This document shows, one piece after another, positions 174-22,780 of a stretch of 33,435 nt of DNA. Position 1 is the first letter of the stretch. Each line of letters begins with the position of its first letter. The position numbers were made by a program, and so were the translations under genes. The notes under the pieces are model-generated. The model ran no database searches and was not told where the DNA came from. It was given only the letters and a program-made list of their open reading frames with translations. The DNA is from Prevotella sp. (GTDB lineage: Bacteria; Bacteroidota; Bacteroidia; Bacteroidales; Bacteroidaceae): NCBI GenBank assembly GCA_017474515.1, contig JAFVHN010000089.1, positions 1 through 33,435 on the forward strand, written 5' to 3'.

Positions 174-842
174 GTGAAAGGCGTAACTTTCAAAATGATG
201 CCCGTGGAAGGCGGAACGTTCACCATGGGAGCTACATCAGAGCAAGAAGAACCTTCCGATAATGAATTTCCCACGCATCAGGTGACCTTGTCATCGTATA
301 TGATAGGTGAAACGGAGGTTACACGGGGACTCTGGGATGCTGTGATGGGCAATGCCCCGGCAGTTTTCAAAGGCCACAATCGACCAGTGGTGAATGTTAG
401 TTGGGAAGACTGCCAAGAATTCATTAAGAAACTGAACAAGTTGACGGGCAGGAAATTTCGCCTGCCAACCGAAGCCGAGTGGGAGTTTGCAGCACGCGGC
501 GGCAACAAGAGCAATCATACACAGTATGCCGGCAGTGATAATTTGAATAATGTGGCTTGGTATGATGAAAACTCTGATAAAACCCATGACGTGGCAACCA
601 AATCTCCTAATGAGCTCGGACTTTATGACATGAGCGGTAACGTCTATGAGTGGTGCCAGGACAGATATGGCGGTTACAGCTCTTCTGCCCAGACAACCCC
701 CACCGGCCCTTCGTCGGGGTCTAGCCGGGTGTTACGTAGTAGCTGCTGGGACGACGGCGCCAGGCACTGCCGTGTGTCTTGTCGTTTCAACGACACGCCC
801 TCCTTTCGCGGCAACTACCTTGGGCTGCGCCTTGCTCTTTAG
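174..842 (+). CDS. SUMF1/FGE-fold protein, probable DGR target (variable protein)
   Basis: This 222-residue protein is a formylglycine-generating-enzyme (SUMF1/FGE-sulfatase, C-type-lectin-like) fold. Seen motifs: VEGGTFTMGAT near residue 12, GETEVTRGLWDAVMG near 44, RLPTEAEWEFAARGG near 97, GLYDMSGNVYEWCQD near 149, and a GLRLAL C-terminus. Residues 187-215, where the family normally reads like RGGSW...ARNCRVS.R, are strongly altered and use almost only NNY codons, the mark of adenine-directed mutagenesis by a diversity-generating retroelement. The start is uncertain. The only usable start is GTG at 174; there is no in-frame ATG between the TAA at 126-128 and residue 8, and no signal peptide, although the residues before GTG (TAQPQTIT) look like the mature start of a secreted relative. 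The gene may therefore be 5'-truncated. It lies in the same frame as the TonB end, separated by two stops. Confidence 0.8.
   Translation: MKGVTFKMMPVEGGTFTMGATSEQEEPSDNEFPTHQVTLSSYMIGETEVTRGLWDAVMGNAPAVFKGHNRPVVNVSWEDCQEFIKKLNKLTGRKFRLPTEAEWEFAARGGNKSNHTQYAGSDNLNNVAWYDENSDKTHDVATKSPNELGLYDMSGNVYEWCQDRYGGYSSSAQTTPTGPSSGSSRVLRSSCWDDGARHCRVSCRFNDTPSFRGNYLGLRLAL
723..839 (+). other. Candidate DGR variable region (VR) at the 3' end of the SUMF1-fold gene
   Basis: Codon-by-codon reading shows 16 atypical positions (residues 189-191, 193-195, 198, 203, 205-207, 210, 211, 213-215). Every one ends in C or T: AGT AGC TGC, GAC GAC GGC, CAC, TGT, TTC AAC GAC, TCC TTT, GGC AAC TAC. Each can be derived from AAC or AAT by changing only adenines. 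The unchanged codons between them are nearly free of adenine; only AGG at 762 and ACG at 795 contain one. This is the pattern of template-repeat AAY codons diversified by a DGR reverse transcriptase. The GC-rich end (819-839) would correspond to the initiation-of-mutagenic-homing segment. No second, adenine-rich copy (template repeat) and no reverse transcriptase gene were seen in the window, so mutagenesis would have to come from elements elsewhere or be ancestral. Confidence 0.7.
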
Positions 843-888
843 TTCTTCCCCTAAAAAGATGAAAAGATGACGAAAAACTAAAAAAAAG

Positions 889-960
889 GAAATTTTCTCA
901 TCGGCATGATGGAAATAAGCGGCCGCCAAGGCCGCGCCATCATGCCGATGAGAAAATTTC
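889..960. other. 24-bp perfect inverted repeat (large hairpin) after the SUMF1-fold gene
   Basis: Arms 889-912 and 937-960 are exact reverse complements over 24 bases. The 24-base centre carries a second 6-bp stem (919-924 with 930-935, GCGGCC/GGCCGC) around a 5-base loop. The hairpin starts 46 bases after the stop codon of the DGR-like gene. DGR targets in phages often have a hairpin or cruciform just downstream of the variable region that is needed for homing, and this could be such a site. Alternatively it is a terminator: on the minus strand it is followed directly by a T-run (complement of 881-887). On the plus strand no T-run follows. Confidence 0.75.
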
Positions 961-16738: not shown

Positions 16739-16968
16739 GATGGATAGCGACATAGGTGAAAACCGGTAAAAATATTTGACAAAACGAACCTTTTTCCTGT
16801 TGCCTTTGTAAGTCGTTGGATTTCAGCTATTTGAAAAACGGTTCAAGTTTGACTGCAAATTTCGGTGAGAGATTTGCCAATTCTCTCCTCTCAATTTGCC
16901 AAATCTCTGCCCGAAATTTGCGGTCAAACCTCTTTGGGTAACCCAAAAACTATGAAAAATCTTGACAA
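16739..16968 (-). repeat. About 229-bp intergenic element with 81-bp palindrome, copy A
   Basis: This is one of three copies (others at 22553-22780 and 32948-33176). In minus orientation it starts TTGTCAAGATTTTTCATAG, contains the palindrome at 16848-16928 and ends with TTTTCACCTATGTCGCTATC. The palindrome arms (TTTGACYGCAAATTTCGG and its complement) pair with few mismatches around a CTCTCCTCTC centre. No reading frame is shared by the copies. The copy lies between the divergent flavoprotein and outer-membrane protein genes. The remaining parts of the 16505-17138 gap are AT-rich; a 7-bp inverted repeat CCGAATT/AATTCGG (16634, 16661) is the only other structure seen. Confidence 0.85.
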
Positions 16969-22552: not shown

Positions 22553-22780
22553 TTGTCAAGATTTTTCAATGGATTTTTGACCTTTAAAATGGTTTGACCG
22601 CAAATTTCGGGGAGAGAATTGGCAAATTTCTCCTCTCAAACTGCCAATTCTCTCCTCGAAATTTGCGGTCAAACTCTGGACGATTTTCAAGGTGTTGATA
22701 CTCAATGGTTTACAAAATCCGCGCAAAATGGCTTATTTTGTCAAAATCTTTTACCAGTTTTCACCTATGTCGCTATCCAT
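22553..22780 (+). repeat. About 229-bp intergenic element with 81-bp palindrome, copy B
   Basis: This copy begins TTGTCAAGATTTTTCAATGG, has the palindrome at 22593-22673 (arms TTTGACCGCAAATTTCGG and complement, about 30 pairs, few mismatches) and ends with TTTTCACCTATGTCGCTATC. Within it, TTGTCAAGATTTTTCA near the start and TTGTCAAAATCTTTTACC near the end are similar direct repeats. It lies between the divergent PorE-like and thioredoxin-like genes. An open frame runs from 22692 through its right part into the next gene, but this is fortuitous. Confidence 0.87.

Follow-up and report, generated by a model that had tools for sequence, protein, structure and literature searches.

The last codons of an FGE/SUMF1-type gene near one edge of a Prevotella sp. 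contig look as if they had been written by adenine mutagenesis, and the question raised by this locus is whether the gene is a target of a diversity-generating retroelement (DGR) and, if so, where the writer resides. The window, which is the whole stretch of 33,435 nucleotides analysed here (bases 1-33435 of contig C14), belongs to a genome (G000) of 3.5 Mb in 118 contigs that is 88% complete. The original prediction regarded the end of this gene as a DGR target having neither template nor reverse transcriptase (RT) in the window, and the data agree with that view: paralogs diverge at template-adenine columns, and cassettes of congeneric genomes supply the template type that is missing here. 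It is therefore very probable that positions 723-839 are the variable region (VR) of a remote DGR target. The features concerned are as follows.

174..842, + strand: FGE/SUMF1 (C-type-lectin-like) gene, the probable target; 222 aa from GTG; PF03781
723..839, + strand: probable VR, a C-terminal block whose codons read NNY where the templates have AAY
732..836, + strand: 35-codon block; gapless alignment with the templates of five congeners and with the other 14 paralogs
738..743, + strand: AGT AGC (Ser-Ser), Gly-Gly in each of the 14 other paralogs as in the five templates; adenine mutagenesis does not explain it
840..849, + strand: TAG followed by TTCTTCC, read by eye
889..960, + strand: composite hairpin with 24-bp perfect arms (889-912 and 937-960) and an inner GC stem (919-935)
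Genome-wide, 15 VR paralogs: C14 (window), C74 (three), C13 (two), C7, C96, C99, C4, C48, C49 and C19 (three)

The gene and its paralogs

The FGE-sulfatase family PF03781 was assigned to the open reading frame at 174-842 with an E-value of 1.1e-45. The frame follows a stop at 126-128, its first start is the GTG at 174 and its first ATG lies at 195; inspection of these in-frame starts revealed no leader peptide, and 12 other paralogs have, as judged by eye, a leader-like start (both C13 domains being only partly visible). The VR runs to the stop codon and thus occupies the C-terminal position in an FGE-type/C-type-lectin gene. Just 5' of the gene, in the same strand and frame, positions 3-107 hold the 3' end of another gene (34 residues plus stop) that enters from the contig edge.

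A PF03781 search (E 1e-10 or better) retrieved 19 FGE genes in the genome; the same search gave five in G009, two in G194, one each in G016 and G061 and none in G040, five congeners. Fifteen of the 19 share one 35-codon C-terminal block. The other four matches (C42, C26, C19:3600 and C74:22725), for which the motif search gave no block of their own, do not enter the VR counts, and no close block emerged when three of them were scanned; C74:22725, which we take to be GldK-like, has relatives in G009, G194 and G016. By eye, the VRs fall mainly into two backbones, GCC..CGTGTGGCG and GCG..CGCGTTTCC. The window VR is loosely similar to the former, from whose seven members it differs at 9-17 of 64 non-A columns.

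Congener cassettes and the pattern of variation

Complete cassettes of the relevant type occur in congeners. When the RT of G009 was used as query against 398 genus genomes, 18 gave a match (E 1e-20 or better), and five of them, G009 itself and four with 63, 59, 49 and 47% identity to it, form one RT clade. These five (G009, G194, G342, G409 and G244) carry complete cassettes, all in the gene order FGE target, accessory, DGR RT and adenine-rich template, and all with PIGNL[TP]SQ and YMDD in the RT; the G009 accessory matches HRDC (PF00570), and the accessory match of G244 crosses one stop codon. In four cis pairs, the template and its VR mismatch at 21/34, 18/29, 14/32 and 10/28 adenines and, in the same order, at 2/71, 0/76, 1/73 and 1/77 other bases, the G342 VR being omitted since an indel disturbs the comparison with its template. 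The cassettes resemble the window locus in the protein block and in the template-A codon positions. They differ in that each VR adjoins its accessory, RT and template, whereas here 15 VRs are dispersed and the cassette was not found. By eye, the TAG and TTCTTCC of the window recur in six of the 14 other paralogs (the three of C74, C13a, C7 and C96) and in the G342 and G409 VRs; at the equivalent site the templates of G009, G194, G342 and G409 differ, and that of G244 is identical to its VR.

On its contig C2 (135578-136435; L117, L252), G009 has another FGE gene whose end is VR-like. After it comes a 66-aa frame in which 32 residues match the HRDC-type accessory at 63% identity, and from its sequence the locus looks like a decayed cassette. 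The sole RT match of G009 lies on a different contig, C18.

Against these templates, the codon signature of the window copy can be read in detail. The sixteen atypical codons of the original prediction are all present and all end in C or T (AGC, AGT, AGC, TGC, GAC, GAC, GGC, CAC, TGT, TTC, AAC, GAC, TTT, GGC, AAC and TAC), and the scarcity of A between them was borne out by a count by eye (3 A among the 69 bases of 23 intervening codons). The further claim that all sixteen derive from AAC or AAT by changes at A did not hold, since the AGT AGC at 738-743 is GGY in all five templates and would require G-to-A changes. Thirteen of the sixteen, lying within the 35-codon block, correspond to template codons AAC/AAT or AGC/AGT and fit A-only change, one of them (block codon 9) being ACG in one of the five templates. 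The TTT codon would require a template AAT, which one of the five templates has, and at 723-725 (AGC) four of the five read AAC. Taken alone, the window VR has 11 of 11 NNY codons at the template-AAY positions, with a probability of about 0.005, so that chance is not negligible, and the strong evidence comes from the 15 paralogs jointly rather than from this copy. Between the window VR and any one of the other 14 paralogs, 9-23 of the 64 non-A columns differ, and against the five templates 9-18 do, so that none of the known templates is close to it. The window copy may be an older, retired target; alternatively, it may derive from a template that none of the other VRs represents.

Across the 15 paralogs, 156 of the 165 codons at the 11 template-AAY positions end in C or T, compared with 274 of 444 at 30 variable columns further upstream in the gene (Fisher p 4e-18), and K, E, Q, M and W are encoded by 5 of 165 and 102 of 444 codons, respectively (p 1.5e-10); both p-values are too small, since related paralogs were counted as independent. 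Heterozygosity at the three codon positions is 0.655, 0.561 and 0.203 at AAY codons, compared with 0.434, 0.396 and 0.437 upstream. Despite the inflated p-values, this codon-position profile is what DGR mutagenesis gives. All 24 A-core columns (those with A in all five congener templates) vary among the 15 VRs, as do 38 of 64 other columns, with mean pairwise differences of 0.645 and 0.208. Differences are thus located mainly at template adenines, as expected of a DGR target, in the congener pairs and in the 15 paralogs, and less completely so in the window copy. The C/T rule is kept at all 11 codons in ten paralogs and broken at nine of the 165 codons in the remaining five (C7, C74_2094, C49, C19_2043 and C19_1057). 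Third bases vary more in conserved VR codons (0.386) than in AAY codons (0.203), and this variation, together with that of non-A columns, requires several templates or drift; we attribute the value of 0.386 to multiple template lineages plus drift.

The VR backbones and the gene bodies have partly separate histories. In the seven backbone-A paralogs (the two of C13, C7, the three of C74 and C96), among the 19 of 21 pairs listed, synonymous difference ranges from 0 to 0.111 in the VR backbone and from 0.057 to 0.286 in the gene body, and 46-96% of the A-core columns differ. Over all 105 pairs of paralogs, gene-body divergence shows no correlation with the difference at A-core columns (rho 0.03, p 0.77) and a partial one with that of the VR backbone (rho 0.46). 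C13a and C74_2094, for instance, have a synonymous difference of 0.148 upstream and of 0.000 over nine VR codons, with 71% of the A-core columns different; C4 and C13b have close gene bodies (nucleotide distance 0.114) and distinct VR backbones (synonymous difference 0.545). The gene bodies of C7 and C96 are only 5.7% apart at synonymous codons and their A-core columns 75% different, and homing was therefore recent relative to their duplication. Such separate histories are the pattern to be expected when shared templates home into several genes. Backbones could also be moved if ordinary gene conversion exchanged entire 3' ends, but this process by itself would not restrict the changes to A columns.

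The same observations weigh against an origin without any DGR, that is, from duplicated FGE genes that ordinary mutation and recombination diversified under positive selection of a binding surface: FGE paralogs may indeed vary in the same loop, and no RT was found, but selection at the protein level does not keep third bases at C or T, nor would it keep adjacent synonymous sites near-identical with at least half of the A columns changed, and we regard such an origin as very improbable.

The missing writer

The original prediction had pointed to the rest of the genome as the place to look for an A-biased copy of the template and a DGR RT, and had counted their absence, together with strain variation spread evenly over the codon positions, against itself. 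Neither was found in the 88%-complete assembly, but variation among the 15 paralogs is concentrated at template-A columns. A composed template-like probe matched 12 of the 15 VRs, and its next matches had E-values of 0.1 or worse and included no A-rich copy; a divergent template could be missed by this search, because the probe failed on C48, C49 and one C19 VR. The 15 VRs hold A at 5-18 of the 24 A-core columns (templates hold 24 by definition), and thus no VR among them is a template of this type. No RT of the DGR clade was detected in the assembly, in which PF00078 found two RTs. The one on C72 was rejected as writer for being group II intron-like (below the cut-off of that model), and the one on C5 for its lack, by eye, of a GNxxSQ-type DGR motif. 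The latter (L002, 1111-2406, minus strand) has 431 aa and scores 120 bits with the NCBIfam group II intron RT model (cut-off 300), followed by Drt3a with 71 bits. An HRDC-type query gave no accessory match in the assembly. Since accessory, RT and template share one short locus in the congeners, a single gap could hide all three.

Searches beyond the genome gave a similar picture. An exact template pattern, which would miss the G009 template, had no match in 40 relatives; a BLAST probe, which found the G009 template, matched two of 100 genus genomes, the window's own included. Fourteen further species were chosen for bearing a VR of one backbone, with a pattern that would also catch the template of that backbone; its 17 matches in 16 loci were all read as VRs, and the records belong to Bacteroidales, Bacteroidaceae, Prevotella and similar taxa, many from rumen. 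In these species the template probe gave 22 matches in 11 of the 14 genomes (best identity 82%); a VR-like block with A at 7-14 of the 24 columns is present in 21 of these loci, L163 giving no block. Identity is here a poorer argument than the A counts, since even the real template of G009 matched the first probe at only 85% identity. The HRDC-type query matched weakly in three species (E 6e-5 to 5e-4, frames of 729-759 aa), and thus neither template nor clear accessory was found among the 14 with these queries. RT alignment matches were obtained in six of the 14 (E 1e-10 or better, 48-132 bits); clade RTs score 300-790 bits, a rough comparison given that another query was used. As far as these scores can tell, none of the 14 has an RT of the G009-type clade. 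In three of the six (L104, L106 and L108) the RT carries PIGNLT[S/T]Q and may, from this motif, belong to a different kind of DGR, which might conceivably act on FGE targets. In two of the three neighbourhoods (L140, 6389-7559, and L141, 6928-7858) there is a near-repeat pair of another target type, apparently a different DGR in two VR-bearing species; the third (L139) has none at the threshold used.

Our findings suggest a DGR whose template would be an adenine-rich RNA of the type present in the congeners. A DGR RT would copy this RNA, misreading its adenines, and the cDNA would replace the 3' end of the FGE/C-type-lectin gene in the window, as well as those of 14 or more paralogs; the cassette itself may lie in the missing part of the assembly, be lost or be carried elsewhere. 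Within this scheme we infer the homing steps, the working of the hairpin and the binding of ligands by the C-lectin surface. The three possible whereabouts are alternatives within the DGR reading.

That accessory, RT and template reside in the genome in one locus of about 2.5 kb that was left unassembled or unbinned has, in our opinion, close to an even chance of being true. The assembly is only 88% complete, the G409 cassette itself lies on a contig of 4,056 bases, and several VR loci are near contig ends (C14 at 729, C99 at 704, C4 at 14285 of 15152 and C96 at 18872 of 20797), as is expected if repeats break contigs; the cassette went unseen in all 14 other VR-bearing species as well, however, which is much for random loss.

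It is possible, and rather less likely, that one or more FGE-type cassettes were once present and lost their RT and template, leaving 15 frozen VRs that slowly drift. RT, template and accessory all went undetected in the assembly, the window copy is devoid of the leader-like start of 12 other paralogs, and RGG changed to RSS in this copy, backbone drift and the rule-breaking codons of five paralogs would all be signs of decay, as would the VR-like FGE gene with an accessory fragment on contig C2 of G009, away from the only RT match of that genome. According to PMC4891356, strains of Treponema denticola without RT and template also retain their targets. Frozen VRs are hard to reconcile with the ten paralogs that keep the C/T rule throughout and with the recent homing seen in C7 and C96.

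A cassette on a separate element (plasmid, phage or integrative element) acting in trans would account for the failure to find a cassette of the clade in any of the 15 VR-bearing assemblies examined, but the elements searched make this unlikely. In IMG/VR, the best 80 of 317 RT relatives, found via two short peptide patterns that miss relatives without them, were 29-36% identical, and plasmid and phage RTs reached at most 37% (among 20 records) and 35% (among 20 of 77 records), in contrast to the 47-63% within the clade. The exact VR/template backbone pattern had no match in IMG/VR, and the DNA probe matched no phage record and four distant plasmid records. A more general speculation, which we hold to be doubtful, is that rumen and gut Bacteroidales keep DGR target families without a resident cassette, and that a short-lived or separately carried RT and template diversifies the many dispersed targets in bursts and then disappears; if so, hypervariable repertoires outlive their writer.

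Comparison with known systems and the 3' hairpin

Remote or orphan DGR targets are of a known kind; what is unusual here is the number of targets, the composite hairpin and the missing writer. In Treponema denticola, according to PMC4891356, a DGR has two to seven targets per strain, most of them remote; the present case differs by its 15 targets, its Bacteroidales-type genome and at least two VR backbones. Dispersed C-terminal CLec VRs, with 76 remote targets, are described for cyanobacterial DGRs in PMC7517822, where, unlike here, the targets were linked to a DGR that their own genome carries. Among the titles within our scope, which left most subscription papers and all bioRxiv preprints outside, none concerned FGE-type DGR targets in Prevotella-like genomes. 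Surveys that seek a template beside an RT miss remote targets, as the authors of one metagenome survey themselves state for their own work (PMC8144416). The VR signature, with a common 3' hairpin at some loci, reveals 15 targets in a genome without a visible DGR RT. Since VRs were seen without a clade RT here and in 14 further species, the location of the writer becomes a testable question.

The hairpin of the window spans 72 nt, starts 46 nt past the stop codon and has a GCCAA inner loop and a folding z of -8.5. Matches to its sequence in the genome (E below 0.1) all lie beside VR genes (C14, C13, C7, C96 and C19), the remaining VR genes having different hairpins or none. A long hairpin is found at a similar place after the VR in four of the five congener cassettes (G009, G194, G342 and G409; z -6.6 to -13.0), as in the window, and the stem search found none downstream of the G244 VR. 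After the templates of those four, the search found no stem over 9 bp, and the same fold gave z values of -3.0 (G009), -1.5, -0.3 and -0.2. According to PMC3240598, the hairpin of BPP-1 is required for homing, and phage-type hairpins have 7-10 bp stems and a 4-nt GRNA loop, 4-34 bp from the VR. The window hairpin is like that of BPP-1 in position, an inverted repeat just 3' of the VR, and unlike the form given there in its arms, inner stem, loop and distance. It probably marks the homing site.

Among 29 selected gene ends, the longest perfect stem belongs to the VR gene (24 bp, compared with at most 16 for the others). The window holds seven inverted repeats of at least 15 nt, two of them with longer arms than the VR hairpin, and the hairpin was rejected as sole proof of a DGR target because long inverted repeats occur elsewhere in the window. 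Those at 22592-22674 and 16847-16929 have arms of 33-34 nt and much sequence in common (GTTTGACYGCAAATTTCGG); unlike the VR hairpin in appearance, they may be copies of an intergenic hairpin that is dispersed in this genome.
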